Assembly (NCBI GenBank): GCA_025458525.1
Contig: JALOSF010000010.1
Coordinates: 1 to 45,159 of the forward strand
Direction of reading: 5' to 3'
Source of the DNA: Cypionkella sp.
Lineage (GTDB): Bacteria; Pseudomonadota; Alphaproteobacteria; Rhodobacterales; Rhodobacteraceae
Length of the DNA: 45,159 nt
Every line of letters begins with the position of its first letter. Position 1 is the first letter of the stretch. Under the pieces are notes generated by a model. It was not told the origin of the DNA. It worked only from the letters and a program-made list of their open reading frames with translations, and ran no database searches. This document shows positions 10,988 through 25,969 of this stretch, in pieces. The translations under genes were made by a program, and so were the position numbers.

Positions 10988-11014
10988 GCTGCGCCTTTCG
11001 GACCTTGGCCTGGA

Positions 11015-11932
11015 TCAGGCGTCGTGGATCATCACCGCGCGACCATCGGGCCGCGAGACGAGCCGCCCCGGCCGCCCGATGCAATCGGACGCGGCGCGCA
11101 GCAGCGTCGGATCAACCGCCAACTGCCCTGCCCCGGCATCTGCGGTCGACAGGACCGAGGATTTCAACAGCCGGGAATAGGGGTGTTCAGGCGTCTCCAG
11201 CACCTTGCGGGCGGCGCCGATTTCAACGATGCGCCCGCGCTGCATGATCATGATGCGGTCGGAAATGTAATAGGCGGTCGCCAGATCGTGGGTGATGTAG
11301 ATCACCGAGACGCCAAAGGAGTCGCGCAGCGTCTTGAGCAAATTGACGATGCTCATCCGAAGGGAGGCGTCCACCATCGACACCGGCTCATCCGCGATCA
11401 ACAGCGCGGGCTTGGGGATCAGCGCCCGTGCAATGGCGACGCGCTGAAGCTGGCCACCACTGAGCTCGTGCGGAAAGCGGCCGCGGATTTCGGCAAGGCT
11501 CAGCCCCACCTTTTGCAAGGCGTCGTCCATCGCGGCATCGATCACCGTCTTGTCGGTCGCGCCAAGAAAGGCGCGCGCGGTGCTGTCCAGATAGCGATCG
11601 ATCTGGCGCAGGGGGTTGAAGGCTTCGAACGGGTTCTGGAATACCGGCTGCACGCTTGACATGAACCGCATGCGTTCATCCTTGCCCATCCGGCGCCGCA
11701 CCGTCTGGCCCTGAAACAGGATGCTGCCTTCGGTCGGATCTTCAAGGCCAAGGATCATCCGGGCCAGCGTGGTCTTGCCCGACCCGGATTCGCCGATGAT
11801 CGTAAAGATTTCGGGTGTTTCGGTCTGAAGCGTCAAGGAGGCGCCGTCTACCGCATGCACGGTCTTGCGGCCAAAGACCCCGCCAAGGGTGAAGCGTTTC
11901 GAAACGTCACGGACATCCAGAAGTGCCGTCAT
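11015..11932 (-). CDS. Opp/Dpp-type ABC transporter ATP-binding protein (DppF-like)
   Basis: A 305-residue ATPase. Walker A is GESGSGKTT, the signature is LSGGQLQRVAIARAL, Walker B is LLIADEP and the H-loop is in ITHDL. The D-loop reads SMVD where most Opp ATPases have SALD. It lacks the long Cys-containing C-terminal zinc/iron-type motif seen in its partner, as is usual for some DppF proteins. Its ATG overlaps the previous stop by ATGA (11929-11932). It should pair with the 11929-12960 ATPase to power the two permeases upstream. Linkage to GH51 and GH43 genes points to oligosaccharides rather than peptides. Confidence 0.92.
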   Translation of the reverse strand: MTALLDVRDVSKRFTLGGVFGRKTVHAVDGASLTLQTETPEIFTIIGESGSGKTTLARMILGLEDPTEGSILFQGQTVRRRMGKDERMRFMSSVQPVFQNPFEAFNPLRQIDRYLDSTARAFLGATDKTVIDAAMDDALQKVGLSLAEIRGRFPHELSGGQLQRVAIARALIPKPALLIADEPVSMVDASLRMSIVNLLKTLRDSFGVSVIYITHDLATAYYISDRIMIMQRGRIVEIGAARKVLETPEHPYSRLLKSSVLSTADAGAGQLAVDPTLLRAASDCIGRPGRLVSRPDGRAVMIHDA

Positions 11933-12960
11933 GTCACCGCTCCATGTGCGAGGGCAACCGATCGGTCAAGCGGCTGGACATCTTGCCAGCGCCAGCAGGC
12001 CGACCGTTGCCCGGGCGCAACCTCGACCAAGGGCGGCACATCGATGCGGCACTTGTCCACCGCAAGCGGGCAGCGCGGGTGGAACCGGCAGCCGTCGGGC
12101 GGGGCGGCCAGGTTCGGGGGGCGCCCGTCAAGCGAGGGGCGCTGCGCCGTATCGCCGATCCTGGGCAGGCTTGCCACCAGATGGGCGGTATAGGGATGGC
12201 GCGGCGCAAAGAACATCTTGCGCGTCGGCCCTTCCTCGACCAGTCGCCCGGCATAGAAGATGCCGATCCTGTCGGTCACATTGGCATGCACGCTCATGTC
12301 ATGGGTCACAAAGACGACCGAGGCCCCCATTTCGGCCTGAATGTCGCGGATAAGGTGCAAGACTTCCTTTTGCACCACCAGATCCAGCGCCGTTGTCGGC
12401 TCGTCGGCGATGATGAATTCAGGATGGCAGATGGTGGCAAGGCCGATGGTGACACGTTGGCGCATCCCGCCCGACAATTCATGTGGATAGGCGCGCAGGA
12501 TGTCGGCGGGCAGTTTCAGACGCGCGAGGTGGTCAAGGACACGGCGGTCAAACGCCTCGCGCGGGAGGCCAAGCGGACGGAAGGCAAAGTCGTGAAACGT
12601 CTGGCCGATGCGCCGCACCGGGTTCAGCACGCTCATCGACCCTTGCATGATGTAGCTCAGGCTTTTCCAGCGCACCCGCTCCACCTCGGCCGCGGTTGCC
12701 GCAGCCACGTTGATCGGGCCGGACCGGAAGTCATAGTTCACCGACCCCGATACCACCCGCAGCGGCGGACGAACGGCGGCAGCCAGCACCTTGATGAAAC
12801 TGGTCTTGCCAGAGGAGCTTTCGCCCGCGATGCCATAAACCTCGTTCCGCCCGATCGACATGGTCACATCATCGACGGCCCGCACCTCGCGCTGAACACC
12901 GAAGTAATGCATCTGGTAATAGGCCTTGAGCCCGTCCACCCGAAGGATTTCATCGGTCAT
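11929..12960 (-). CDS. Opp/Dpp-type ABC transporter ATP-binding protein (DppD-like)
   Basis: A 343-residue ATPase. Walker A is GESSSGKTS, where a serine replaces the usual middle glycine. The signature is LSGGMRQRVTIGLA and Walker B is FIIADEP. The C-terminal oligopeptide-transporter domain carries CRFHPRCPLAVDKC. The start is 3 nt after the permease stop, and the end overlaps the next ATPase by 4 bp. It forms a heterodimer with that ATPase on the cytoplasmic face of the transporter. Confidence 0.92.
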   Translation of the reverse strand: MTDEILRVDGLKAYYQMHYFGVQREVRAVDDVTMSIGRNEVYGIAGESSSGKTSFIKVLAAAVRPPLRVVSGSVNYDFRSGPINVAAATAAEVERVRWKSLSYIMQGSMSVLNPVRRIGQTFHDFAFRPLGLPREAFDRRVLDHLARLKLPADILRAYPHELSGGMRQRVTIGLATICHPEFIIADEPTTALDLVVQKEVLHLIRDIQAEMGASVVFVTHDMSVHANVTDRIGIFYAGRLVEEGPTRKMFFAPRHPYTAHLVASLPRIGDTAQRPSLDGRPPNLAAPPDGCRFHPRCPLAVDKCRIDVPPLVEVAPGQRSACWRWQDVQPLDRSVALAHGAVT

Positions 12961-12963
12961 CCC

Positions 12964-13821
12964 TTATACTCCCATACGGCGCAGACGGCTGCGCGGATCG
13001 ATGTATTCATTCGTGCTGACCGCCAGAAGAAAAAGCCCAAGAAAGGTAAGCGCGGTCAAAACGACGGGGATCACGATCCACCACCAGACCCCGACAACCA
13101 TCGCCGAATGCGAATTGGCCCAATAAAGAACGGTGCCAATGGTCGGCGTGTTGATATCGGTCAGCCCCAGCACCGCCAGCGTGACCTCAAGCCCGATGGA
13201 CCAAAGCATATTGTTCATGAAGGTCGCAAAGACGATGGGCATGACAAAGGGCAGATGCTCTTGCAGCAGGATCTTGCGCGTGCTCATCCCGGCGAAAACC
13301 GCGTGGCGCGTGAATTCGCGATGCTTGAGGCCAAGCGCCACCGAGCGGATCAGCCGGGCATCATAGGCCCAGCCCAGACAGGCCATGATCAGCGCCAGCG
13401 TCACGGTGTTCATGTCGCTGCGCAGCACGAAGTAGAACAGCACCAGGACGGGAAAGATCGGGATCGCGACGAAGATGTCGTTCACGAACATCAGCACCCG
13501 GTCGATCCAGCCGCCCAGATAGCCAGACAAAAGCCCGACCGTGATCGCGATGATCCGGCTGATGCAGGCAACGGTCAGGCCAAAGACAAGGCTGTTGCGG
13601 AAGGCTTCGGACAATTGCCAGAACATGTCCTGCCCGCGCGAGTTGGTGCCGAACCAGAATTCCGCCGAAGGGGGCTGGTCGGGGATCGTGGTGAAGATCA
13701 GGTTGGGGTCCACCGGGCTGAACAGGCTTGCCAGCGCGAAAATCCCGATCGCGGCCACCAGAACCAGTCCGATGGCGAATTCGTTGTTGTAGCGCACAAG
13801 GTCGCGAAGAACGGCAAACAT
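12964..13821 (-). CDS. Opp/Dpp-type ABC transporter permease (DppC-like)
   Basis: A 285-residue membrane protein. It has one N-terminal segment, a periplasmic stretch containing FGTNSRGQDMFWQ (the DppC-type F/LGTDxxGRD region), then five segments. The EAA-type coupling loop lies in RHAVFAGMSTRKILLQEHLP (residues about 182-201). It follows the DppB-like gene by 4 bp and pairs with it to form the translocation pore. Confidence 0.92.
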   Translation of the reverse strand: MFAVLRDLVRYNNEFAIGLVLVAAIGIFALASLFSPVDPNLIFTTIPDQPPSAEFWFGTNSRGQDMFWQLSEAFRNSLVFGLTVACISRIIAITVGLLSGYLGGWIDRVLMFVNDIFVAIPIFPVLVLFYFVLRSDMNTVTLALIMACLGWAYDARLIRSVALGLKHREFTRHAVFAGMSTRKILLQEHLPFVMPIVFATFMNNMLWSIGLEVTLAVLGLTDINTPTIGTVLYWANSHSAMVVGVWWWIVIPVVLTALTFLGLFLLAVSTNEYIDPRSRLRRMGV

Positions 13822-13825
13822 GGGG

Positions 13826-14830
13826 CTACTCCGCTTTGACGCGCGGGTCGATCAGCGGATACAGCAGATCGACGATGAAGATGGCGATGCCGACGGCGGT
13901 GATCGAGATGGTGGAGACCGCCAGCACAAGCGCATAGTCGCCGCCGAACACGGCATCGATCAGCAAGGATCCAAGACCGGGATAGTTGAACACCTGTTCC
14001 GTGATGATCGTGCCGGAAAACACGGTCCCGATGTTCATGGCAAGCCCGGTGACTTGCGGGATCATCGCGTTGCGGATCACATATCCGCCCATGATCGTGG
14101 ACCGCTTAACCCCGGCAAGTTCGGCGTAAGTGACGTAATCCTCTGTCACCACATTCGACACCAGCGCCCGCATGCCCAGGAACCAGGTGCCAAAACCCAC
14201 CAGAACCAGCGATACCGCAGGCAGGATCGCGTGCAACGCGACCGACCACATGAAATCCAGCGTCCAACCGGGCGCCACGTCCATCGCATATCCGCCGGAG
14301 ATCGGCAGCACCGGCCAGACAAAGCCGAACAGGATCAGCAGCACGAAGGCGACCACATAATAGGGAATGGGTTGCAGCACGACAGCGACCACGCCAAAGG
14401 CCTTCAGCGCCATGTTGTTCTGGAAATATCCTGCCAGCGCCCCAAGCAGATTGCCGGCAAGGAAGGTGATCAGCGTTGAGACGACCAGCAAGGCCACGGT
14501 CCACGGCAGGGCCTGCATCACAAGCGTCATGGCAGGTGTGGGAAAGGCGATCAGCGACGGGCCAAGGTCGCCGGCGGCCAGCTTTTGCCAGAAAGTGACA
14601 TATTGCTGCAACAACGGCCTGTCGGTTCCGTAAAGATCGGTCAGCACGCGGCGCATGTCCTCGATCGCATCGGGACTGAAGCTCGATTGGTTGGCAATCC
14701 GTCCCAGGGCGGTTTCCACCGGGCTGATCGGCGACAGATGGGTGATGAAGAAGGTCGCCGAGACGCCGAAAAAGATCACCGCGACCAGCAGGACCGCGCG
14801 CTTTGCGACGAACCAGAAGTATGAAGTCAT
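13826..14830 (-). CDS. Opp/Dpp-type ABC transporter permease (DppB-like)
   Basis: A 334-residue inner-membrane protein with six predicted segments. An early segment VLLVAVIFFGVSATFFITHL is followed by a large periplasmic loop. The coupling motif in the C-terminal half is TYAELAGVKRSTIMGGYVIRNA. The C-terminus ends DLLYPLIDPRVK, the typical DppB ending. It is separated from the binding-protein gene by 107 bp with hairpins, while all downstream genes are nearly contiguous. It forms the pore with the DppC-like partner. Confidence 0.92.
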   Translation of the reverse strand: MTSYFWFVAKRAVLLVAVIFFGVSATFFITHLSPISPVETALGRIANQSSFSPDAIEDMRRVLTDLYGTDRPLLQQYVTFWQKLAAGDLGPSLIAFPTPAMTLVMQALPWTVALLVVSTLITFLAGNLLGALAGYFQNNMALKAFGVVAVVLQPIPYYVVAFVLLILFGFVWPVLPISGGYAMDVAPGWTLDFMWSVALHAILPAVSLVLVGFGTWFLGMRALVSNVVTEDYVTYAELAGVKRSTIMGGYVIRNAMIPQVTGLAMNIGTVFSGTIITEQVFNYPGLGSLLIDAVFGGDYALVLAVSTISITAVGIAIFIVDLLYPLIDPRVKAE

Positions 14831-14867
14831 GCCATTCCCTTTGCAGCGGGTCCCGGCAGCCCAGAGG

Positions 14868-14936
14868 CTGCGCGGCAGGTGCGCAGAGCGCCGGAGGGCG
14901 ATGCCCGCCCCCCGGCAAAGCGAGGTGATGGGCGGG
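14868..14936 (-). other. Intercistronic stem-loops between binding-protein and permease genes
   Basis: Two inverted repeats occupy the only sizeable gap in the transporter unit: CTGCGC-N7-GCGCAG (14868-14886) and CCCGCCC/GGGCGGG (14904-14910 with 14930-14936). Such stem-loops after a binding-protein gene often protect the upstream mRNA or reduce read-through, giving more binding protein than permease. That role is inference; no U tract is present. Confidence 0.4.
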
Positions 14937-14937
14937 G

Positions 14938-16854
14938 TTATCCCGCCGCGCGGATCTGGGTCAGGATATACCGACTGTTGCCCCAGTTCGTCACAGGATT
15001 GGCGTAGGGCTGTTCGGCGTTTGGCCAGTTGGTCCAGTATCGGTTCGACTGCACCGAGAACACGTTGAACGCCATGATGGGGATGATCGGCATCTCGTCA
15101 ACGTAATACTTCACGAACTCATGCCCAAGTTCGAGGCTGCGCGGGTCGTTGAAATCCGTCTTGCGGATGTTCTCGATGATGGCGTCCTGCGCGGGCGAGG
15201 AAAACCGCATCAGATTGCGCGGGGCCTGCGGCTGACCGGGCTGCGCCACATAGGCCGAGTGATAGCTGTCGAGGAAGAAGCTCAGGTCAGGGTGGCCGCC
15301 AAAGGTTTCGACCGCCCAGCGCACAGAGGCGACATAATCCCCCGCTGTCAGACGCTCGCGGATGTCGGGGGCCGCTTCGGGCGTGACCTCGATGCCGTTC
15401 TGGCTCCAGCTTTGGGCGATCACCGTGCCCAGACGGTTCACCACGCCATCGGGCGGCACCATCAGGCTGAAGCGGAAGGGCTGACCGTCGGGCAGCATCC
15501 ACTGGCGCCCGTCCTTGGTGCAGCCGGCGGCGGTCAGAAGTTCCTCGGCCGCGGCGATGTCCTGCCGCCACCAGCCATAGCCAAAGGCATTGCGCAGGGC
15601 GGTCGGATCGGTGGGCACCGCATCGCCGAATTGCTGGCGCACCATGTCGGCAATCTGCACGCCGACATCGGGATCATAGACCTGCACCTTGCGGGTTCCG
15701 GTATCGACCTCGTAGGCGGCAAGATAGTCCTGCAAGGGCCCATGATAATCACGCGGATGCGTGCCGGTGGGCGGCACCGCGATGGCCGACAGCGTGGCCG
15801 CGCCGCGATAGCTTGCCATGCTCATCGAGCGCGCGTCCAGCATCAGCGCAAGCGCCCAGCGGATGCGCTTGTCGCCAAACATGGCCGAACCGGACTGGTG
15901 GTTGAAAATCACATGGATCAGCGTGGGGTCCGGATGCGCATAGGGAAAGCCCGGGAACCAGCCTTGCGTCGTGGGGTCTTGCTGCACGATGGCAAAGGCG
16001 CCTTCGGGCGTCAGGTCGTGGATCATGTCGAGCGTGCCATTGCGCATCTCGATCAGGCGGTTGTCGATGGAAATGTTGTTGCGATAAATCGCATGCTGCG
16101 GCGCCGGTTCACCGACCAGCCCCAAGGCGGTCTTGTCCCAGTCAGGACGTTTGTCCCAGATGAACCAGGTGCCGTTGGGATCAAAGCTGTTGAGCGTATA
16201 GGCCCCCAGACCGACCGGCGGATTGAAATCAAAGGTCAGCGGATCGGCCACCGTTTCAAAGATATGCTTGGGCATGATCCAGCAGGCGTTCCACCGCACC
16301 GAGAACAGCGTGTGAAAGCGTGAATTCGGCCGCTTCAGACGGAACACGACCGTCTTTTCATCCGGGGTTTCGATGCTTTCGACCTGATTGGCAAAGGTGC
16401 TGGACCAGATCATGCCGGGCGTGCGCACTTGCAGATCGACGGTAAAGGCGACATCGGCCGAGGTGAAGGGTTTGCCGTCACTCCACAGCAGGCCCTCGCG
16501 CAAGGCGACCGTCATCTGCGTGAAGTCTTCGTTATATTGCCAGGGTCCGGCGGCAAGCGAGTTGTAGATGCCGTTTTCGGTAGCGCCGGTGATACCGGCA
16601 TCGGGGTCGATATACCAAAGCGTGTCCATCACCAGCTGCTGCAAGCCCGTGCTTTGTCCGCCACCGCCGCTGACCCAGATGTTGAACCAGCCCGGGTTGC
16701 GGATCACGCCTTCGGGGTTCTGGATGATCACCGTCTTGTCGCGCGGAAACCGGGCAAGATCGGGGGCGGTCGCATCCTGGGCCAGGGCCATCCGCCCCGC
16801 AGCCAGAGACAGGGCGCTCATGGCGGTCGTTGTCAGAAATCTCCGTCTGTGCAT
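14938..16854 (-). CDS. Opp-type extracellular solute-binding protein (SBP family 5), oligosaccharide candidate
   Basis: A 638-residue family-5 binding protein, longer than peptide-binding DppA (about 535) and similar in size to known oligosaccharide/opine-type members. The N-terminus MHRRRFLTTTAMSALSLAAG-x5-AQD carries a twin-arginine RRRFLT motif, so export by Tat in folded form is likely. EGLLWSDGKPFTSADVAFT near residue 120 is the family signature. GGAGG lies 7 nt before the ATG. A sigma70-like promoter and an inverted repeat lie upstream. The position between the GH51 gene and the DppBCDF-like genes indicates capture of arabinose-containing oligosaccharides in the periplasm. Confidence 0.88.
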   Translation of the reverse strand: MHRRRFLTTTAMSALSLAAGRMALAQDATAPDLARFPRDKTVIIQNPEGVIRNPGWFNIWVSGGGGQSTGLQQLVMDTLWYIDPDAGITGATENGIYNSLAAGPWQYNEDFTQMTVALREGLLWSDGKPFTSADVAFTVDLQVRTPGMIWSSTFANQVESIETPDEKTVVFRLKRPNSRFHTLFSVRWNACWIMPKHIFETVADPLTFDFNPPVGLGAYTLNSFDPNGTWFIWDKRPDWDKTALGLVGEPAPQHAIYRNNISIDNRLIEMRNGTLDMIHDLTPEGAFAIVQQDPTTQGWFPGFPYAHPDPTLIHVIFNHQSGSAMFGDKRIRWALALMLDARSMSMASYRGAATLSAIAVPPTGTHPRDYHGPLQDYLAAYEVDTGTRKVQVYDPDVGVQIADMVRQQFGDAVPTDPTALRNAFGYGWWRQDIAAAEELLTAAGCTKDGRQWMLPDGQPFRFSLMVPPDGVVNRLGTVIAQSWSQNGIEVTPEAAPDIRERLTAGDYVASVRWAVETFGGHPDLSFFLDSYHSAYVAQPGQPQAPRNLMRFSSPAQDAIIENIRKTDFNDPRSLELGHEFVKYYVDEMPIIPIMAFNVFSVQSNRYWTNWPNAEQPYANPVTNWGNSRYILTQIRAAG

Positions 16855-16911
16855 TTTTTATCCTCCCTTTGGGGGGAACTGCCCGCACTCCCTCGGGCAT
16901 GTCCCTCATGA

Positions 16912-16939
16912 ATGATATCCGGGGCACCTCACCTGTCAA
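16912..16939 (-). promoter_or_regulatory. Sigma70-like promoter for transporter operon
   Basis: On the minus strand, TTGACA (16939-16934) is followed after 16 bp by TATCAT (16917-16912), five of six matches to TATAAT. The start site would fall near 16905, giving a leader of about 50 nt to the ATG at 16854. It lies in the 164-bp gap after the arabinofuranosidase gene, so the transporter genes can be transcribed independently of it. Confidence 0.55.
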
Positions 16940-16952
16940 CGAATTATATGAT

Positions 16953-16968
16953 ATGAATCGAACTTCAT
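16953..16968. promoter_or_regulatory. Inverted repeat just upstream of the promoter -35
   Basis: ATGAA (16953-16957)-N6-TTCAT (16964-16968) lies 13 nt upstream of the -35 hexamer in an AT-rich stretch. This is a position typical for an activator site. The binding protein is unknown; the ArsR-type regulator at 18696-19625 or a global regulator are candidates. Confidence 0.35.
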
Positions 16969-17018
16969 GATAATCGATGACTTAGGGTTCCGGGGGCGCC
17001 CCAGATGCCTTGGCATGG

Positions 17019-18530
17019 TCAGACCCGCACGCGAATCATCTGATAGGAATAGGGCGGCAGGGCGACGGTCAGGGTGCCATCCGCCAGCCGCGCGCCAGAG
17101 CCATCCCGCGGGGCCACTTCGGTCTGGTTTTGCGCCGTATTGGTCGCCTGAAGGTTGGGATGCGTCATCACCTTGTGTTCGATCACGCTGCTGGCGGCAA
17201 AGCCTTGCAGGCTGATCTCGGTTTCGATCGTCTCCAACCCGTGGCGGTTGATGAGGAACAGCGTGACGCTTTCCCCCGCTTCGTCATGCACGCCCGCCAC
17301 GTCCACATAAGCGGTCTGGTCGGAATGCACGCTTTCATAGGTCGGCGACGAGACGCGCAACTGAAGCGCCGTGCCCCGCCCATAGATCGAGGCGTAGTAA
17401 TACGGATAATAGATGGTCTGCGCCCAGGCCGGCCCGCCACGCTCGGTCATGATCGGCGCGATCACGTTCACCAGTTGCGCGATGCAGGCAATCTTCACCA
17501 CATCTGAGCGACGGATGAAGGTGTTCAGCGCAAGGCCCACCATCAGCACATCCTCGAAATTATAGATGTCCTCCAGCAGCGCAGGCGCATGGGGCCAGCC
17601 ATGCTTGCCTTCCCGGATGGCACGGTCCTGCTGGTTTGAATGATACCAGACGTTCCATTCATCGAACGAGATGAACACGTCGTGGCGCGACTTCTTCTTT
17701 GATTTCACATAGCGGATGGTGGCCGCGATCGTGGCGACATAGCGGTCCAGCTTTTCGCTAAGCGCCAGATAATTTGCGGTATTTTGCTCATAGTTGCGGA
17801 AATACATGTGAAGGCTGATGTGATCCACATGCTCGAAGGTGTGTTCAAGCACGATCCGCTCCCAGTCCGGATATGTCACCATGTCCGAGTTCGATGAACC
17901 ACAGGCGATCAGTTCCAGAGACGCGTCGAACATCCGCATGGCGCGGGCGGTATTCGCGGCCAGCTTGCCGTATTCATGGGCATCCTTGTGGCCGACCTGC
18001 CAGGGGCCATCCATCTCGTTGCCAAGGCACCACATCTTGACGTTCCACGGCTCCTTGCGCCCGTTGCGCACCCGCAGGTCAGACCAGTAGGACCCGCCCG
18101 GATGATTGCAGTATTCCAGAAAATTCCGCGCCTCATCCACGCCGCGAGAGCCAAGGTTCACCGCCAGCATCATCTCGGTCCCGACCGAGGCGCACCAGTC
18201 GGCGAATTCGTGAATGCCCACCGCATTGCTTTCCGAAGTGTGCCAGGCCAGGTCCAGCCGCACCGGGCGTTGGTCCCTTGGGCCGATCCCGTCCTCCCAG
18301 TTGTAGGCCGATACGAAATTGCCGCCGGGATAGCGCACGAAGGGCACATCCAGCCGCTTGACCAGATCGATCACATCGCCGCGCATGCCATTGGCATCGG
18401 CGGTCGGATGGTCGGGCTCGTAGATGCCCTCATAGATGGCGCGACCAAGATGTTCCAGAAACGCCCCGTAAACACGATCATCAATCCGCGAAATCGTGTA
18501 ATCTTTGTTTGCTATGACCGTTGCCTTCAC
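17019..18530 (-). CDS. abfA: Alpha-N-arabinofuranosidase, GH51, intracellular
   Basis: A 503-residue enzyme of normal GH51 length with no signal peptide. FLEHLGRAIYEGIYEP near residues 24-39 and VRYPGGNFVSAYNWEDG near 65-81 are family signatures. The acid/base is Glu172 in GNEMDGPW and the nucleophile is Glu291 in SFDEWNVWYH. These positions are within a few residues of those known in Geobacillus AbfA. It releases terminal L-arabinose from arabino-oligosaccharides in the cytoplasm. I chose GTG at 18530 because GAGGAGG lies 6 nt upstream; the longer TTG start at 18545 would contain that site. It follows the ArsR-type regulator and precedes the transporter genes. Confidence 0.95.
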   Translation of the reverse strand: MKATVIANKDYTISRIDDRVYGAFLEHLGRAIYEGIYEPDHPTADANGMRGDVIDLVKRLDVPFVRYPGGNFVSAYNWEDGIGPRDQRPVRLDLAWHTSESNAVGIHEFADWCASVGTEMMLAVNLGSRGVDEARNFLEYCNHPGGSYWSDLRVRNGRKEPWNVKMWCLGNEMDGPWQVGHKDAHEYGKLAANTARAMRMFDASLELIACGSSNSDMVTYPDWERIVLEHTFEHVDHISLHMYFRNYEQNTANYLALSEKLDRYVATIAATIRYVKSKKKSRHDVFISFDEWNVWYHSNQQDRAIREGKHGWPHAPALLEDIYNFEDVLMVGLALNTFIRRSDVVKIACIAQLVNVIAPIMTERGGPAWAQTIYYPYYYASIYGRGTALQLRVSSPTYESVHSDQTAYVDVAGVHDEAGESVTLFLINRHGLETIETEISLQGFAASSVIEHKVMTHPNLQATNTAQNQTEVAPRDGSGARLADGTLTVALPPYSYQMIRVRV

Positions 18531-18556
18531 GGCGTCCCTCCTCAATTCCCGCTTGC

Positions 18557-18695: not shown

Positions 18696-19625
18696 TCAGG
18701 GCGCGGTGTAGAGCCGCAGGATGATGTCCTGATCGTAATTGCCAAAGCCGCGGCCAAAGATGTTGATGCCACCAGGATGGCGGGCATCCGGCTTCACCGC
18801 GATCCGAACCCGGATCGAATGGTGGTTCGCAAGGTCCAGATCGACCAGCGAGACCGGAGAAATCTTCATCCCGTCAACAAAGGTGCCATCCTTGGTCACG
18901 CGCCAATTCTTCAGCTTGCCATACTGGCTGCCCTTCAGCTTCCACCAATCGGGGGTGTAAACGCCGCGCTTGTCGCCGAAATCGCCCGTGGTCATCCAGG
19001 TGCCGATCTCGGTGCCATTGATCGACAAGGTGATGTCGCTGGGCCAGTCGGCCGAGGTGCCCGGCACTTCGGAACTGAGTTCAAGCGAGATTTCAACGGC
19101 TTCGACGACATGCTGCGCCAGCCGGGCGTTGTTGGGAAACTTGTATTCCAGATAGCCTTGGGTGAACCAGATCAGGCCCGCCTTCATCCGGTCCGGCTCC
19201 AGAAAGGTATCGGGCACATCCAGCATCCCGATGATGCCATCGACCGAGCAGATGCCGCAAGGCGCCGTCACTTCGCAACTGGTGTAAAGCCCAAGCGGCA
19301 TCATCACCTCGATCAGCGATTCGCTCAGCGGTGAAACATCGTCACCGAACATCACAAGCACTTCATCAAAGGTGGAATGGCAGATCTTCTGATTGCCCTT
19401 GCGTGCCTTTTGCGTGTCGGTGCGGATCAGGCCCGCCGCTTCAAGGATTTGCAGATTGGTCGAGACGGTGGATTGCGGCAGGTCCAGCCGTTCGGCAATG
19501 TCGCTTCCGTTCATCGCGGAATCCGTCCGAAGCAGTTTCAGGATCTGGATGCGGATCGGAGAGGCAAGTGCCTTGAGGACGTCCAGACGTTCTTCCGGAT
19601 TGATCACGAGAAAGTTGCGGCTCAT
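18696..19625 (-). CDS. ArsR-type winged-helix regulator with large C-terminal sensor domain
   Basis: A 309-residue protein. Residues 1-90 are a winged helix: RLDVLKALASPIRIQILKLL, then SDIAERLDLPQSTVSTNLQILEAAGLI, typical of ArsR-like repressors. Residues 90-309 are far longer than a classical ArsR (about 100 aa) and look like a beta-sandwich, with many aromatic and Asp/Gly turns near TPDWWKLKGSQYGKLKNW. A Cys cluster C-x5-C-x2-C is present around residue 120. The extra domain could bind a sugar, since the gene heads the GH51/Opp-transporter/GH43 cluster in the same direction. I infer that it senses arabinose or an arabino-oligosaccharide. No arsenic- or metal-resistance genes are nearby. Confidence 0.82.
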   Translation of the reverse strand: MSRNFLVINPEERLDVLKALASPIRIQILKLLRTDSAMNGSDIAERLDLPQSTVSTNLQILEAAGLIRTDTQKARKGNQKICHSTFDEVLVMFGDDVSPLSESLIEVMMPLGLYTSCEVTAPCGICSVDGIIGMLDVPDTFLEPDRMKAGLIWFTQGYLEYKFPNNARLAQHVVEAVEISLELSSEVPGTSADWPSDITLSINGTEIGTWMTTGDFGDKRGVYTPDWWKLKGSQYGKLKNWRVTKDGTFVDGMKISPVSLVDLDLANHHSIRVRIAVKPDARHPGGINIFGRGFGNYDQDIILRLYTAP

Positions 19626-20106
19626 CGTCTCCTGCCGGCCTTGGATGCACAGCGCCCTGTCCTATCAGACTATTGGATACAATCAATCCTTCACTTCAGC
19701 ATCGCAGAACCTTTGCACGGCGATCGGGACAGACCGCAGCCTGCCAGCGGCGATCAGCGCGGGGGGGGCGCAGCGGGCCATGGCCGCGCAAAGGCGTGCC
19801 CGGCTCTGCTTGGGCGATTTGAAAGGCGTGCCCGTCCCGTCCTGCCAATGCCTGGCCCGGGTCTGTGGCGCTCAACCGGGACGCGCCTCTGACACGGTGA
19901 ACATCCCGCATCTTGGCGCACGTGTGGGGCTGATGCCTATGCTGGTCCTTGGGCCTTCCCCGATTGCGCCAGCCCCCCCCTGAACGGGGGAGTGACGCAA
20001 GGGCAACGACCTGTTTCCTTGTCTGCGGCAGACCGTTGGCAGAGGCGGTCTTGGTCTGCGCTGCCGTGTTTTTGCGGCAGCGATACAAGCAAGAAGGTTT
20101 GAATCG
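19626..20106. other. 481-bp intergenic region without a credible gene
   Basis: The region lies between the divergent ArsR-type regulator and the lipoprotein. Open frames here are in several conflicting directions and show no recognisable domain. It holds a 13-bp direct repeat AAAGGCGTGCCCG (19790-19802 and 19822-19834), a GTCTGC-G-GCAGAC palindrome (20021-20033) and a perfect 8-bp stem-loop (20059-20082). It should contain promoters for both flanking genes. Confidence 0.6.
20059..20082 (+). promoter_or_regulatory. Stem-loop in the leader of the lipoprotein gene
   Basis: CGCTGCCG (20059-20066)-TGTTTTTG-CGGCAGCG (20075-20082) is a perfect 8-bp inverted repeat ending 24 nt before the ATG. The AAGAAGG ribosome-binding site (10 nt before the ATG) follows it. 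It could be an operator or a leader hairpin that tunes translation; which one is not visible. Confidence 0.4.
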
Positions 20107-20775
20107 ATGAATAAAGCAACACTTCTGATTGCTGCATCCTCCATGATGGCGCTTGCAGGCTGTCTGGGCAACGGTGGCGGCGCTGGCGGTATTGGCGGCG
20201 GTGGCGGTGGCGGCGGCGGTGGTGGCGGCGGCGGGAACGCGGGCACCATCCAGGAACGGCAGGACGCTGCCGTGGCCCTTGGCCCGACCACCGACCTGCC
20301 GGTTTCCGGGCGGGCCAATTACGAAGGTCAGGTGCAGGTCAATGTGCCGGGCGCGCCATTCGATGCCGAAGGCAGCGCAACGGTCGTGGGCGACGTGACG
20401 CTTGAGGTGGATTTCGCAGCCGGCAATGACTCGCGGCTCGACGGGATCGCCCAGAACTTCGAGGCAACCACGGCAGATGGCACCACGGCACAGATCAGCG
20501 GCAGCCTGTTGCTGAACCCCGATCTGTCGCAGGTCAGCCGCTTTGACCTGCCGGCCCCGGCGACCGGCTCCACCGGAGGTTTGACCGCGATCTATGAGGG
20601 CGATCTGACCTTTGACGGCACAACCGCCGAAGTGGACCTGACGCTGCAAGGGTCGGCCTTCGGGTCGGGCGCCGAGGCGTTTTCGGGCGTGGCCAATGCC
20701 GGTGTCGATTTTGCACCGGGCGAAGGCACCGATTTCATCGGCGAAGGCGGCATCTTCATCCTCGAAAAGCAGTGA
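20107..20775 (+). CDS. Surface lipoprotein with TbpB-like C-terminal barrel, candidate type XI secretion cargo
   Basis: A 222-residue lipoprotein. Signal peptide MNKATLLIAASSMMALAGC has a lipobox LAGC with lipidated Cys19. A run of glycines (30-43) forms a flexible tether. The remaining ~175 residues are beta-rich: LPVSGRANYEGQVQV, TLEVDFAAGNDSRLDG, YEGDLTFDGTTAEVDLTLQGS, ending EGGIFILEKQ. This order (P-x-SG-x-A-x-Y-x-G, VDF, G-x-F at the end) matches TbpB-type eight-stranded barrel domains. The next gene encodes a SLAM-like outer-membrane protein, the known partner that exports such lipoproteins to the cell surface. The ligand is unknown; TbpB-like domains are used for binding host or environmental metal, heme or protein partners. 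Confidence 0.75.
   Translation: MNKATLLIAASSMMALAGCLGNGGGAGGIGGGGGGGGGGGGGGNAGTIQERQDAAVALGPTTDLPVSGRANYEGQVQVNVPGAPFDAEGSATVVGDVTLEVDFAAGNDSRLDGIAQNFEATTADGTTAQISGSLLLNPDLSQVSRFDLPAPATGSTGGLTAIYEGDLTFDGTTAEVDLTLQGSAFGSGAEAFSGVANAGVDFAPGEGTDFIGEGGIFILEKQ
20194..20235 (+). repeat. GGN-codon tract encoding 14 consecutive glycines
   Basis: Fourteen GGC/GGT/GGG codons in a row (residues 30-43) follow GGGAGGI. They form the tether between the lipidated cysteine and the barrel. Triplet-repeat tracts can expand or contract without a frameshift, so tether length may vary between strains. Confidence 0.8.
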
Positions 20776-20807
20776 CAAGCGAGATTTCAGCAAGCACTTT
20801 GTTCGAC

Positions 20808-22052
20808 ATGACTGCTTTCAAATCCAGAAGGGGTCGCGGTGCGCATGCACCGGGGCCCCTATTTTTGCGGCTGATCTGCGTGATCGTGCTGCTGCTTGCC
20901 GCGCCTGCCTTTGCGCAGACGGCAGACCGGCAGGCCATGGCCTTCGAACAGGCCCGGCAGGCGGCGTCCACCGGCCGGCTGGACGAGGCGCAGGCCTTGC
21001 TGGAGCGGCTGGTCACACTGTCGCCTGACACGCCCGGCTATCGACTTGCACTGGCCGAGGTGCTGCTGCGTCAGGGACAAACGGACCGCGCCTTTTTTCA
21101 CTACAGCCAGTTGGAGGGAGCGGCCCTTGGCCCGCGCGACCGCGCCCATGTTGCGCAGCGTCTGGCCGTGATGCGGCGCAGCGAAGGCTGGAAGCTGCGC
21201 TTGTCTTTTGGGCTTGTGCCGCAAACCAATGTGGGCAAACGCACATCGGCCGACAGCATCGATATTGGCGGCATCGATTTTGCGCTGGATGCCAAGTCGC
21301 GCGAACAATCGGGCGTCGGACTTGCCTTTGCCGCGGGCGCGTCGCGTGCGGTCACGCTGCGCAGTGGCAGCGTGCTGCGCTTTGGCCTTCAGGCGCAAGG
21401 CTACGCTTACAACGACCGCAGCTTCAACGACCTGCGCTTGCGCGCCAGCCTTGGGCTGGAACGCGTGATGAGCCAGACCCTGCTCCTTGAAGGGGGGCTG
21501 GTTCACAACACCCGCTTTCTGGCCGACAAGCGGTTTTCAACCGGGCCGGGCCTCTGGCTGGGTGCGCAGGTCAAACTGTCACGGCAAAGCCTGCTGACCT
21601 TGCGCGGCCAGACCGACTGGCAGCGCCATCCGACCGCGCCGGGGCTGGATGGCATGCGCCATGCCCTTGTGCTGGGGCTGCGGCATCAGGCCTCGCCCAG
21701 CCTGTCGATGACGGCGCAGCTCGGGCTCGACCGCACCGAGGCGCGGCAAGACACGCAATCGGGCAAGGGTGTGTCGCTGACCCTTGGCGCGCGCAAGCAA
21801 TGGGCAGGCGGGCTGACGCTTGGTCTTGACCTGACCCAGCGGCAAGAGCGGCGCGACGGCACAGAGCCCTTGTTCGGGGTGCGGCGCGACGATCGCACCA
21901 CCAGCGTCACGCTGCGCGCCTCGCACCGGTCCTTCACCGTGTCGGGCTATGCCCCGACGCTTGAAATCACCCGCGAACAGCGCCGCTCCACGCTCGCGCC
22001 GGCACGGTATCGCAACACCAGCGTCGGCATCTTCCTGTCGCGCGAATTCTAG
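20808..22052 (+). CDS. SLAM-like outer-membrane protein (surface lipoprotein assembly modulator, DUF560)
   Basis: About 414 residues from this start. After a signal peptide (hydrophobic LICVIVLLLAAPAFA, cut before QT) come TPR-like helices at about 40-110 (AFEQARQAASTGRLDEAQALLERL, YRLALAEVLLRQGQTDRAFFHY). A long series of alternating beta-strands follows and ends in phenylalanine (FLSREF), the outer-membrane barrel signature. TPR plus DUF560 barrel is the SLAM architecture (type XI secretion). SLAM moves lipoproteins across the outer membrane. Start uncertain: a GTG at 20772 overlaps the lipoprotein stop (GTGA), the ATG at 20808 is used here, and a TTG at 20865 gives the shortest signal peptide; none has a clear ribosome-binding site. 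An intrinsic-terminator-like hairpin lies at 20829-20866. Confidence 0.75.
   Translation: MTAFKSRRGRGAHAPGPLFLRLICVIVLLLAAPAFAQTADRQAMAFEQARQAASTGRLDEAQALLERLVTLSPDTPGYRLALAEVLLRQGQTDRAFFHYSQLEGAALGPRDRAHVAQRLAVMRRSEGWKLRLSFGLVPQTNVGKRTSADSIDIGGIDFALDAKSREQSGVGLAFAAGASRAVTLRSGSVLRFGLQAQGYAYNDRSFNDLRLRASLGLERVMSQTLLLEGGLVHNTRFLADKRFSTGPGLWLGAQVKLSRQSLLTLRGQTDWQRHPTAPGLDGMRHALVLGLRHQASPSLSMTAQLGLDRTEARQDTQSGKGVSLTLGARKQWAGGLTLGLDLTQRQERRDGTEPLFGVRRDDRTTSVTLRASHRSFTVSGYAPTLEITREQRRSTLAPARYRNTSVGIFLSREF
20829..20866 (+). terminator. Intrinsic-terminator-like hairpin between lipoprotein and SLAM-like genes
   Basis: The inner stem CGGTGC-GCAT-GCACCG (20837-20852) is extended outward by AGGGG/CCCCT plus T-G and C-G pairs, with one G-G mismatch. 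It is followed by ATTTTT (20861-20866). The hairpin sits 54 nt after the lipoprotein stop but inside the 5' coding part of the SLAM-like frame for any start before 20865. It may limit SLAM expression relative to its cargo. Confidence 0.6.
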
Positions 22053-22696
22053 GGCCCGTCTTGGGTGCCAAGGCCCATGCGCGTGGCATGCCAGGTGGCC
22101 TCGGCCCGTGAAGAAATGCCAAGTTTGCGGTAGATCGCCTTGATATGGCTGGCAACCGTGGTCTCGCTCAGCTCCAGCTGGCGGGCGACATCGGCATTGC
22201 GCAAGCCGCGGCTGATCAACCCCAGAACCTGACGTTCGCGCGTGGTCAGCGACAGGTCTTCGCTGTCCACTGGTCCGGTCAGGCGGAAATGCTCCATGAT
22301 GCGCCGGGCGATCGAAGGCGACAGCGCCGGTATGCCATCGGCCAACTGCGCAAGCTGCCGCACGATGCGCTCGGGCGCCTGTTCCTTGAGCAGATAGCCA
22401 TTCGCACCCACCGACAGGGCCGCCACGATATTGGCATCATCGCCCAGCACCGTGGTGATGACGCACAGGGTCGCCGGATTGCGGCGGCGGATCTGGCGCA
22501 ACAGATCAATCCCGGACCCGTCCGGCAGGCCGATGTCGATCAAGGCCACATCGGGTTCGGTGGTTTCCAGCGCCGCAAGTGCGGCGCGCACGGACCCGAC
22601 CAACAGCGTGCGGCACCCCGGAAAGGCCTCGGCGGCCATGTCATGCAACCACAGCCGGGTTTCGGCAACATCTTCGACAATGAGCACCTTTTGCAT
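22049..22696 (-). CDS. NarL/FixJ-family response regulator
   Basis: A 215-residue two-domain regulator. The receiver domain (1-120) has phospho-acceptor Asp54 in ALIDIGLPDGSG, acidic residues VEDV near 7-10 and Lys104 in GYLLKEQ. The C-terminal LuxR-type HTH (about 150-205) has LTTRERQVLGLISRGLRNADVA and ETTVASHIKAIYRKLG. It lies 9 bp downstream of its cognate histidine kinase gene. Its stop shares a CTAG tetramer with the SLAM-like gene's stop on the other strand (22049-22052). Its targets are unknown; the adjacent lipoprotein/SLAM pair and the serine hydrolase are candidates by position. Confidence 0.93.
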   Translation of the reverse strand: MQKVLIVEDVAETRLWLHDMAAEAFPGCRTLLVGSVRAALAALETTEPDVALIDIGLPDGSGIDLLRQIRRRNPATLCVITTVLGDDANIVAALSVGANGYLLKEQAPERIVRQLAQLADGIPALSPSIARRIMEHFRLTGPVDSEDLSLTTRERQVLGLISRGLRNADVARQLELSETTVASHIKAIYRKLGISSRAEATWHATRMGLGTQDGP

Positions 22697-22705
22697 GGAC
22701 TCGTC

Positions 22706-24850
22706 TCACTCCAAGGAAAATGCGGCCATCAGTTCCGTGCCGCCACCGCTGCTGTCATCGATCCGCAAGATACCTTTCACCGCCTCAAGCCGGGTGCGGA
22801 TATTGGCAAGGCCATGGCCATGCCCCGGCAGTACCGCATTCGCGGCAACGACGCCGCGCCCGTTGTCCTTGACCCGCAACTCGATCCGCCCGTGAACGCT
22901 GCGCACCTGCACCTCGACGCGCGTTGCCTCGGCGTGGCGGATGACATTGCTGACCGCCTCGCGCAGGATCGAGCGCAGCGTGTGCACCGCCGGAGCAAGG
23001 ACCGCGGCCCGGCCCACCTCATCCGCGCGCCAGTCAAGCGTGATATGGGCCGCCTCCAGCCTGTCGGCGCATTCGACGCGCAGATCGGCCAGCATCTCGT
23101 CCAACGACAGGTCCGCGGCGGCGGTGTCGTTGATGATGTCGCGAAAATCCGACAAGGCATCGCGGATCAGACGATCCTTGCGGTCGGCACCGGGACAATG
23201 CAACGCCGACAGAAGTTTCGCCCCGATGTTGTCATGCATATCGCGCGAGATGCGGGCACGTTCCTCGGCCATGCCGGCCTCGCGCGCATGGCGGCTGTCC
23301 AGCGCATGGGCCAGCATGGCGCAAAGATCGCGGGCCAGGGCGGCATCGGCACGGGTGAACAGACGCCGCCCGCCACGGGCATGGCCCAGCCGCATCGGCG
23401 TAACCCCACCCACCCCCGGCAGGGCAAGGCCAAGCCCGTCCTCGATGATCATGGGGGCGGCGACCGGCGCGCCCTTTTGCAATTGCAACGGATCGAACGC
23501 CTGCCCCAGAAGATCGGCCCAGCGCTGGTTCTGGTCCTGATCCGGCGGGGTCAGCGCCACATCGACCACGCGCTGGAACAGCGTCCCGATCGGCACTTCG
23601 GGCGTCGACAACCAGCGCCGCAGCTGATCGCGCAGCGTCATGTAAACCAGCAAGATGGCGATAAGCGAATAGCTCAGCGCCTCGACCCGCCCGATGGCGA
23701 GTGCAAAGACCAGCAGCGCATCGATCGCAAAGATGGTCAGCACCGCCGCCAGATTGAACAAAAGCCCGAAGGCCCAGGTTTCAAGCTCGAACAGCCGATA
23801 GCGCGCCACGCTCAGCCCGATGCCCGCAAAGACGATCAGAAGCAGCAGAAAGGCATTGGCCTGACTGGTGATCTGGCGAAAGCCCAGAAGATTGGGCAAG
23901 ACCACCAGCGTGACGAAAGTGCCGGTGCCGATGGCGACCGCAATGGTAAACCAGCGCAGCGCGGCACGGGTGGCCGGATTGTGCCGCGCGCGACGGTATT
24001 GCACCAGAGCGGCCGGGATAAACACCAGCAGCATCAGAAAAGCCGGCAGGTGAAAGCCGGTCGGCGGCCCGGGAAACACGATCCGCAGCGTATCGGCCAG
24101 CCACCACAGCGCGACGATGACCGGCAGCACAATCAGCTTGCGCGGGCTGACGATCCGGCTGGGATAAAGGCAAAACAGCACGACCATCGCAAGGCCAAAG
24201 CCCATCGCGCCAAGGTGATCGACCGCCGCAAGCACACGAAACAGGTCCGCTGGCAAGGCGATATCGCGCGAACTGTAGATCGCTGCCGGAAAGATCATCA
24301 CCGCCAGCGCAACCCCCGCAAGCGCCGTCAGTTGCGCCGCCGGATCGCGCAGCCGCAGGCTCCAGACCCAGATCCCGATCATCAAGCCGCTTGCCCCGGC
24401 AAAAAGCTGCGACCAGAAGGTCCAGGGCAGCGAGGAAAGCGGGCGGCTGGCCAGCGGGCGCAGCGTCACCTGCCGCACCCCGCCGGCGTCTGCCACATCC
24501 AGCACCGTCTGGGGCTGGCGCAGCGCAAGCGCCAGCCGACCTTGCCGTTCATAGAACCTGCGACTGTCATCATAGCTGCGCAGCGTGTCAGGCTCCTCGA
24601 CCAGATCGAAGGCGCTGAGGGGCACACCTGCCACCGCCAGAACCTGATCGCCCGGCGAAAGCCCAAGTGCAGCCGCGGGGCCCTCGGGCAAGACGCCGAT
24701 GACGCGCGCGCCCGGCCCATCGGGGTCGGTCGCAAGCTCCAGCCCGGTCCATGGCTGGTGCAGCGTGGTAAAGACGACCCAGACCGCGACGGCAAGCGTC
24801 ACGGCAAAGCACAGGGCCACGACGGGCAAAGGCGTGAGGGCTGGCTTCAT
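22706..24850 (-). CDS. Membrane sensor histidine kinase with PDZ domain (HisKA_3/NarX-type)
   Basis: About 714 residues. After one N-terminal membrane segment a PDZ-like domain (about 35-85: ARVIGVLPEGPAAALGLSPGDQVLAV) faces the periplasm. About seven or eight further membrane segments follow (150-420). The dimerisation domain has phospho-acceptor His539 in ARISRDMHDNIGAKLLS (HisKA_3 type), and the ATPase domain shows VKDNGRGV and GHGLANIRTRL. I chose the ATG at 24850 because the frame before it lacks a hydrophobic start. It phosphorylates the NarL-type regulator downstream. A PDZ domain in a sensor suggests detection of exposed protein C-termini or envelope stress, but this is inference. Confidence 0.88.
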   Translation of the reverse strand: MKPALTPLPVVALCFAVTLAVAVWVVFTTLHQPWTGLELATDPDGPGARVIGVLPEGPAAALGLSPGDQVLAVAGVPLSAFDLVEEPDTLRSYDDSRRFYERQGRLALALRQPQTVLDVADAGGVRQVTLRPLASRPLSSLPWTFWSQLFAGASGLMIGIWVWSLRLRDPAAQLTALAGVALAVMIFPAAIYSSRDIALPADLFRVLAAVDHLGAMGFGLAMVVLFCLYPSRIVSPRKLIVLPVIVALWWLADTLRIVFPGPPTGFHLPAFLMLLVFIPAALVQYRRARHNPATRAALRWFTIAVAIGTGTFVTLVVLPNLLGFRQITSQANAFLLLLIVFAGIGLSVARYRLFELETWAFGLLFNLAAVLTIFAIDALLVFALAIGRVEALSYSLIAILLVYMTLRDQLRRWLSTPEVPIGTLFQRVVDVALTPPDQDQNQRWADLLGQAFDPLQLQKGAPVAAPMIIEDGLGLALPGVGGVTPMRLGHARGGRRLFTRADAALARDLCAMLAHALDSRHAREAGMAEERARISRDMHDNIGAKLLSALHCPGADRKDRLIRDALSDFRDIINDTAAADLSLDEMLADLRVECADRLEAAHITLDWRADEVGRAAVLAPAVHTLRSILREAVSNVIRHAEATRVEVQVRSVHGRIELRVKDNGRGVVAANAVLPGHGHGLANIRTRLEAVKGILRIDDSSGGGTELMAAFSLE

Positions 24851-24982
24851 CGGGTCAGGCGGGCCTGTGCATGGGGCAACGGATCTGCACCGCAAGGCTA
24901 TCCGAATAAAGCCATCCGAACAGCACCCTGAACAGGGGATTTGCACGCTTTGCCGGCCGGTGCGGCGCGGCGGCCCGCGCGC

Positions 24983-25969
24983 TCAGGCCAGTTGCAGGAT
25001 CGGCCCGTCCAGCAGGCGCATCAGATCGCCGAAATACCCGCCCGACCGCGCGGGTTGCATGGGGTCCGATGTGATGGCCACGGCCAGCGCCCGCTCGGGA
25101 TGCGCCGCGATGATCTGGCCACCATAGCCACGCGCAATCATCCAGCCCGACCCGCTGAGGAACCAGCCAAGCCCATAGTCTAGCCCCGAATAGGGCGACC
25201 GGGTCACGGGTTGGCGGCTCGCGCTGACCCAATCGGCCGGGATGACCGGCTCCCCGTCATGGCGCCCGCCATCGCGCATCATCACCGCCAGACGCAGCAT
25301 CGCCTCGGGCGTCAGGGCCATTTCATTGCCGCCAAAGTAATAGCCCTGCGGATCCCGGGTCCAGGAGGGCACATCGATCCCCAACGGACGGCCCAGCCGT
25401 TCGCGTACGAGACTGCGCAAGTCGCGCCCCGTGGCCACCGTGATCGCCGCCCCCAGCACATGCGTGGTGCCGGTGGAATAGATCATGCGACCGCCGTTTG
25501 GTGCGATCCGGGGCTGACGCAGCGCATAGGCCACCCAATTGCGCGATTGCGTCCAGGCGCCGTAATTGCCGCCCGACGTCCCCTCCAGCCCGCCGCGCAG
25601 CGTGACAAGGTCGCCCATGGTCAAATCGGCCACCCCTTCGGTCGCGTCATCGGGGATCAGCCGGGGGGCGACATCGCCCAGCCGCGCCGACAGGCCCGCA
25701 ATCTCGCCCGTTGCGATGACGGTGCCAAGCACAAGCGCCAGCACGCTTTTGGAACAGGATTTGATGTTGGCGGGGGACGCAAGCCCCCTGCCCCGCGGCG
25801 CCTCGGCCACAAGCCTGTCTGCCCCGCGCTGCACCAGGATGGCATGCAACTGCGGCAGGGCGACGGCCTGCGCCCGCAGATCCTCCACCCGGCTGTCTTG
25901 CGCGCGCAGGATCGTTGGAGCAGCAAGGCCCGTGACAAGCGCGGCGGAAAACAGACGACGGGAGAGCAT
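24983..25969 (-). CDS. Secreted serine hydrolase, beta-lactamase class C/D-alanyl carboxypeptidase fold
   Basis: A 328-residue protein with an N-terminal export signal (MLSRRLFSAALVTGLAAP, twin arginine present). The nucleophile motif S-x-x-K is Ser71-Cys-Ser-Lys74 in NIKSCSKS. The second motif Y-x-T/N is Tyr164-Ser-Thr166 in RMIYSTGTTHVLG. The third motif region reads GYGGQ instead of KTG. This pattern belongs to the large penicillin-binding-protein-like hydrolase group (EstB esterases, DD-peptidases), and its sequence gives no reason to call it an antibiotic-resistance enzyme. It is 132 bp upstream of the histidine kinase in the same direction and may be a separate unit. Confidence 0.85.
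   Translation of the reverse strand: MLSRRLFSAALVTGLAAPTILRAQDSRVEDLRAQAVALPQLHAILVQRGADRLVAEAPRGRGLASPANIKSCSKSVLALVLGTVIATGEIAGLSARLGDVAPRLIPDDATEGVADLTMGDLVTLRGGLEGTSGGNYGAWTQSRNWVAYALRQPRIAPNGGRMIYSTGTTHVLGAAITVATGRDLRSLVRERLGRPLGIDVPSWTRDPQGYYFGGNEMALTPEAMLRLAVMMRDGGRHDGEPVIPADWVSASRQPVTRSPYSGLDYGLGWFLSGSGWMIARGYGGQIIAAHPERALAVAITSDPMQPARSGGYFGDLMRLLDGPILQLA

Follow-up and report, generated by a model that had tools for sequence, protein, structure and literature searches.

The window, the whole 45,159-nucleotide stretch of Cypionkella sp. DNA analysed here, probably encodes a barrel-only lipoprotein that is exported by an adjacent SLAM protein and stands under the control of a dedicated two-component system. 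By computation, we found both genes of the cargo–SLAM pair, a recurring linkage, a palindrome, and the co-occurrence of this palindrome with a kinase–regulator pair. An initial annotation, made from the letters of the sequence, had proposed the cargo–SLAM pair; the linked two-component system and the palindrome, which it did not mention, are the more informative part of the locus. The four genes are the following.

20107..20775, plus strand: predicted SLAM cargo lipoprotein, with lipobox, poly-Gly tether and eight-stranded barrel, and no other folded domain
20772..22052, plus strand: SLAM / DUF560 (SlipAM) outer membrane protein, with TPR helices, 14-stranded barrel and C-terminal Phe
22049..22696, minus strand: NarL/LuxR-type response regulator (Response_reg, 2e-19; GerE, 1.9e-18)
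22706..24850, minus strand: ComP-like histidine kinase, with TM1, periplasmic PDZ-like domain, further TMs, HisKA_3 and HATPase

The SLAM protein

Both genes of the pair were confirmed at the positions where the initial annotation had placed them. The downstream gene starts either at a GTG overlapping the cargo stop codon or at ATG 20811, which is followed by a signal-peptide-like stretch. The search against DUF560/SLAM models that the initial annotation had proposed as a check returned SlipAM (PF04575) with an E-value of 4.2e-22 and 79.5–80.8 bits, against a cut-off of 22, over the full model (positions 1–288). The generic models TPR_19 and TPR_14 also scored above their cut-offs, and the SLAM-specific TPR model PF24575 stayed below its own (21.3 versus 35.2 bits). 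An AF2 model built on 19 sequences (mean pLDDT 89.8) displays five helices past a signal-like one and 14 long strands, the strand number that the excerpted text of PMC5449769 gives for the SLAM barrel. The description of this protein as a TPR-plus-barrel protein ending in Phe thus holds. Foldseek and a PDB sequence search yielded barrels and TPR proteins, with no SLAM structure among the matches listed. The Cypionkella genome itself, which is 87% complete, contains one PF04575 match.

The cargo lipoprotein

The upstream gene encodes 222 residues. Its lipobox, LAGC with Cys19, is read from the sequence pattern and is followed by a tether of about 25 mostly Gly residues, as had been described. 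In the AF2 model, whose core is mostly above pLDDT 90, a 10-residue helix after the tether precedes eight long strands and one short strand.

The TbpB-like beta domain ascribed to this protein was borne out by more sensitive comparisons and not by direct ones. Pfam and NCBIfam gave no TbpB model match for the window protein, the top matches being DUF2505 (E = 0.19) and motif_MiiA (E = 0.21), and the best 60 of 277 matches to PDB sequences were weak or of low complexity. When a profile of 18 relatives was run against the PDB, the top chain was lactoferrin-binding protein B, at an E-value of just 0.049, and TbpB_B_D was touched by three of the 18 cargo-family members (best E = 0.0022). Foldseek with the cargo model returned no match at E = 0.001; its weak matches included the N-lobe of LbpB, a haemophore and photosystem II PsbO barrels. 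Because PsbO ranks beside LbpB and none reaches E = 0.001, the fold search alone leaves cargo membership unsettled. For comparison, ten longer SLAM-adjacent cargos from the same bacterial family were run against Pfam, and six passed the TbpB_B_D cut-off. In an hhalign comparison, the window cargo profile, from residue 67 to the end, aligns with the C-terminal barrel of these six (96.6%, E = 4.9e-10).

Since the alignment involves the C-terminal barrel only, the window cargo looks like a TbpB-type barrel minus the part that precedes it. Effector, pedestal and barrel are common to the cargos examined in PMC12282271, as far as its excerpted text goes, and the pedestal or handle and the N-terminal effector region described there are not present in our model. 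The window cargo therefore seems, from this model, to be a barrel without handle and effector.

This bears on whether we are dealing with an ordinary haem- or metal-binding SLAM cargo, for which the two-component system would be a generic controller. Binding of haem or iron is frequent among known SLAM cargos (PMC8406197 and PMC12282271), and the LbpB N-lobe and the haemophore figure, beside PsbO, among the weak fold matches. However, the window cargo has no handle domain, and no TonB-dependent receptor or haem family was found among the 18 window proteins scanned with Pfam, in agreement with the initial annotation, which had seen none adjoining the pair. The other larger clusters of neighbouring ORFs (see below) also count against this role, being antisense ORFs. 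We consider such a nutrient-binding role unlikely. The two TonB-receptor matches in the Cypionkella genome are both on other contigs.

The pair among relatives

PF04575 matches at E = 0.001 occur in 145 of 394 genomes of the family (134 above the cut-off) and in 10 of the 16 genomes of the genus. As T11SS/SLAM in Rhodobacteraceae is, moreover, already in print (PMC12282271, excerpted text), the pair by itself is not new. With the SLAM profile, we fetched 18 named loci, which include Fertoeibacter, Roseinatronobacter, Natronohydrobacter, Pseudorhodobacter, Rhodosalinus and Oceaniglobus. A lipoprotein-type ORF stands directly before SLAM in all of them, which supports the cargo–SLAM reading; it is a complete lipobox-type ORF in 17, and in L055 the cargo ORF is cut at the contig end.

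A different possibility is a lipoprotein that remains periplasmic, with the SLAM protein serving another, unlinked cargo. Cargo-profile matches at E < 1e-20 number 22, and five of these lack an intact SLAM gene alongside, one of the five being accompanied by SLAM pieces; genome G243 even has six cargo-profile matches and no SLAM barrel. On the other hand, the remaining 17 of the 22 adjoin a SLAM match, and in the named loci the cargo gene is adjacent to or overlaps the SLAM gene, so that we regard a periplasmic lipoprotein as quite improbable.

Some of these loci have further peculiarities. In G243 (L120, L212), three cargo-family lipoproteins are arranged in tandem beside the kinase, near genes that by eye are TamA/TamB-like. 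Natronohydrobacter thiooxidans (L041, L053) has two SLAM–cargo pairs that lie on opposite strands and differ in cargo type, with about 9 kb between them. In L116 (G052), the kinase carries an in-frame stop and SLAM is fragmented, next to a cargo gene that looks intact; this unit seems to be decaying.

The linked kinase and response regulator

We compared the neighbourhoods of the window (14.9–27 kb) and the 18 named loci by matching all ORFs against all, giving 19 loci in total. The SLAM cluster was present in 19, the cargo family in 17, the histidine kinase in 14 and the response regulator in 13 (the one in L053 being a different regulator). The next clusters, with 8, 6 and 5 loci, consist of ORFs antisense to the SLAM, cargo, kinase or regulator genes. 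The kinase is missing from five loci, of which L042 and L055 are each situated at the end of a contig and L053 is on the same contig as the kinase-linked L041. Genes for GH43, an oligopeptide-type ABC transporter and alpha-L-arabinofuranosidase occupy positions 10043–18545 of the window and perhaps serve arabino-oligosaccharide uptake; we set them aside as context, as the best 25 neighbour clusters include none of those that fall within the compared stretch, which leaves out GH43 and most transporter genes.

The response regulator has the receiver and GerE domains (Pfam) and shares 56–83% sequence identity with 11 aligned relatives. For the kinase, ATG 24850 is favoured over GTG 24946 as the start. 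Hydropathy predicts TM1, a periplasmic part and more TMs; a kinase core is also present. Against Pfam, the window kinase scores 26.8 bits for PDZ (cut-off 23.2), lies above the cut-off for HATPase_c and lies just below it for HisKA_3 (23.1 versus 24). The PDZ model PF00595 is matched in two of 14 kinase relatives, and many kinases have a degenerate PDZ part or none. In the periplasmic DLxEEPD motif, D..EEPD is invariant in 14 aligned kinases and the L nearly so. In the kinases of G363, G372, G226, G276 and G163, the first 65–77 profile positions are unmatched; by eye, those of G363, G226 and G163 start with a short loop that keeps DL..(E/D)EPD. Covariation of the sensor part with cargo class was considered and dropped: none was clear, as G363 and G226 accompany the same cargo family.

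A kinase profile, scored for at most two candidates per genome, matched in 28 of the 394 family genomes, in 26 of them with more than 300 bits. SLAM is close by in 17 of these 26. The other nine comprise G052 with its broken SLAM pieces, G384 and G110 with contig breaks, G243 with three cargo-family genes and no SLAM, and G367, G298, G248, G347 and G375, where a kinase match above 300 bits has neither SLAM nor cargo nearby. Outside the family, seven strong kinase matches, for each of which 14–16 kb were fetched, have a regulator in all cases and SLAM or cargo in none. The existence of this kinase family without SLAM speaks for its recruitment to the pair and against an origin around it.

A palindrome before the cargo and kinase genes

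The regions upstream of the cargo and kinase genes contain the following elements.

19977..19990, no strand assigned: operator candidate before cargo, palindrome CCCCTGAACGGGGG, 116 nt ahead of the ATG
19992..20019, plus strand: promoter-like tail, with GTGACG (−35-like) right after the operator candidate and a weak −10-like TTTCCT 16 nt on
24925..24938, no strand assigned: second operator candidate, before the kinase, ACCCTGAACAGGGG on the plus strand, 74 nt ahead of ATG 24850

Upstream of the relatives' cargo genes, the consensus is CCCCCCTGWWCAGGGGGG followed by NGAC. Within the window, sites with at most one mismatch give four strand-matches, compared with a mean of 0.16 in shuffles. An exact R-form, CCCCTGWWCRGGGG, is present once in the 3.43 Mb of the Cypionkella genome; allowing one mismatch gives 13 forward matches there versus six for a control, so most one-mismatch matches in this genome are meaningless.

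We scored cargo upstream regions in 32 rows, which represent 31 distinct regions, L045 and L145 being one and the same record, and the cargo starts are approximate in 14 of the scored loci. The palindrome CCCCTGWWCAGGGG is present with at most two mismatches in 24 of 25 kinase-linked regions, a set that includes L120 (without SLAM) and L116 (SLAM in pieces); L131 has three mismatches. By chance, this level was reached in 17 of 3000 shuffled 300-nt pieces and in 22 of 2573 real ones, the real set possibly including true kinase-upstream sites. Among five cargo loci without this kinase, L045, L057 and L149 have four mismatches, which is the chance level, while L053 has a site with two mismatches and L147 an exact one; L147 encodes a regulator of its own, which is preceded by further sites. 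L042, which has an exact site, was left outside this contrast as its contig ends. The association of site and kinase gives a Fisher p of 0.009, for relatives that are not independent; with L053 and L147 sited without the kinase, the number of negatives behind this contrast is small. Two kinase-linked loci with another cargo class, which are not among the 31, G372 (L130) and G276 (L132), have sites in the gap with two and one mismatches, respectively.

GAC follows 3 nt past the 14-mer in all 21 loci given, and the −10-like hexamer 16–17 nt further on agrees with a mean of 3.2 of 6 positions, against 1.8 of 6 in shuffles; the window has 3 of 6. Among seven other sited loci, the −35-like tail is found in L131 alone and is missing in the other six. 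From sequence, the layout of site and tail would suit an activator bound next to the −35 element. Where the kinase–regulator and cargo–SLAM units diverge, there is one site in between (12 of 12 loci given). Where they do not, a separate site with at most two mismatches stands before the kinase or regulator in five of six loci (the window, Fertoeibacter, L129, L131 and L147), with no second site in L141; in Fertoeibacter niger (L040), the second site has the same 74-nt distance and the same flank as in the window.

In five kinase–regulator loci without SLAM, the sites have 0, 1, 2, 3 and 3 mismatches, of which the two with 3 are near chance, and no site with at most two mismatches was found before the seven kinases from outside the family. 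In three genomes of one other family (L170, L171 and L172), CCCCGGAACAGGGG is found just behind the regulator gene and not before the kinase.

Exact copies of CCCCTGWWCAGGGG occur at 16 places in 11 of 30 genomes examined, in which a reversed-palindrome control gave none. Ten of the 23 genomes with the kinase have an exact site (13 have none), as does one of the seven without it (G244, before the cargo gene). In G197, G067, G017, G330 and G052, the single exact site of the genome is located in the kinase–cargo gap. Of the other places, those in G347 and G339 are inside ORFs, one in G243 is between gene ends, and another in G243 lies 1.2 Mb from the kinase before a cargo-profile gene (4.8e-17), behind which a second lipoprotein gene gave no match. 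G298 has an exact site ahead of a small protein whose start is signal-like. One 22-kb kinase contig of G367 (L209, L117), without cargo–SLAM, carries five exact and several one-mismatch sites, by eye near small proteins with signal-like starts, which suggests a wider local regulon.

A self-complementary element could also act as a terminator, work at the RNA level or be bound by a different regulator, in which case its linkage would say little, and the G243 copy between two gene ends would fit this. Against this, the GAC spacing is fixed in every one of the 21 loci, a second copy stands before the kinase or regulator where the units are split, and Rfam gave no match over positions 19600–25100. 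We hold such a reading to be very unlikely and treat the palindrome as an operator candidate.

Could the cargo itself be part of the signal?

One may picture a cargo that serves its own two-component system as input at the outer membrane. As long as SLAM exports the cargo, the kinase would stay silent; a failure of export, or engagement at the surface, would be signalled across the periplasm and feed back on the operator of the unit. In the manner of RcsF, the barrel lipoprotein would meet the kinase in the periplasm when its delivery to the surface fails. A barrel that comes without a separate effector, a kinase with a periplasmic part and a conserved DLxEEPD motif, the recurring linkage and the single exact operator candidate in five genomes are all in keeping with such a loop. 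However, there is no sign of direct contact between cargo and kinase, and the PDZ part is degenerate or absent in many kinases of this type. The kinase family is also found without cargo or SLAM; the matches outside the family, in particular, weaken the sensor reading. For these reasons, we keep this loop at a low probability, and both its general form and its RcsF-like version appear rather improbable.

Discussion

Our preferred reading remains that of an exported barrel under a dedicated two-component system. In it, the cargo lipoprotein, with its lipobox and glycine tether, would travel to the outer membrane via the Lol route, and the SLAM barrel encoded by the adjacent gene would pass it onto the cell surface. 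The periplasmic part of the kinase would sense an envelope or outside signal; the phosphorylated regulator would then bind CCCCTGWWCAGGGG beside the cargo promoter and turn the cargo–SLAM unit on, and it may also act on its own kinase–regulator unit. Lipidation, export, binding by the regulator, the cargo's role and a control that activates instead of repressing are all inferred; that the loops of the cargo barrel serve binding or adhesion is a guess.

Comparison with known systems shows both shared and distinct features. As in Neisseria, where Slam1 and Slam2 serve TbpB, HpuA and others (PMC5449769, PMC8406197, excerpted), a SlipAM barrel with TPR is encoded next to a lipoprotein with a C-terminal eight-stranded barrel. 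Unlike the Neisseria systems, the window has a cargo model without handle or pedestal and effector, no TonB receptor among the scanned neighbours, and a linked two-component system with palindrome. The marine cluster 3 T11SS of Rhodobacteraceae and Roseobacteraceae, as excerpted from PMC12282271, resembles the window in bacterial families and in a locus lipoprotein predicted to have a C-terminal barrel; its cargos, in contrast, are 282–375 residues long with pedestal and N-terminal domain, and its neighbouring genes are DUF1194, thymidylate synthase and lactoylglutathione lyase genes.

The kinase recalls ComP of the ComP–ComA system of Bacillus, a kinase of many TMs whose PDZ domain is placed between the first two (PMC9620489) and which has a LuxR/NarL-type regulator, although the PDZ model is matched in just two of 14 relatives of the window kinase. 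With the Rcs system, the locus would have in common that a lipoprotein of the outer membrane is connected to signalling at the envelope, as RcsF is in the abstract of PMC7553776, but the proteins differ, and signalling by the cargo is conjecture.

The words 'histidine kinase' and 'two-component' are absent from the main text of PMC12282271, and 'Rhodobacter' and 'Alphaproteobacteria' are absent from PMC8406197. Among open PMC papers, we found no account of a SLAM-linked two-component system. Judged against this open literature, the comparison suggests that the two-component linkage and the palindrome are what is new here, beside the already known SLAM of Rhodobacteraceae.

SLAM is best known in an iron and host setting. 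If our reading is true, the Cypionkella locus would represent a SLAM system that has a testable signal circuit of its own, away from that setting, and its cargo would have kept just the barrel, the presumed carrier of the export signal. Two questions would thereby become directly testable: which feature of the cargo is recognised by SLAM, and what this bacterial family uses SLAM for.
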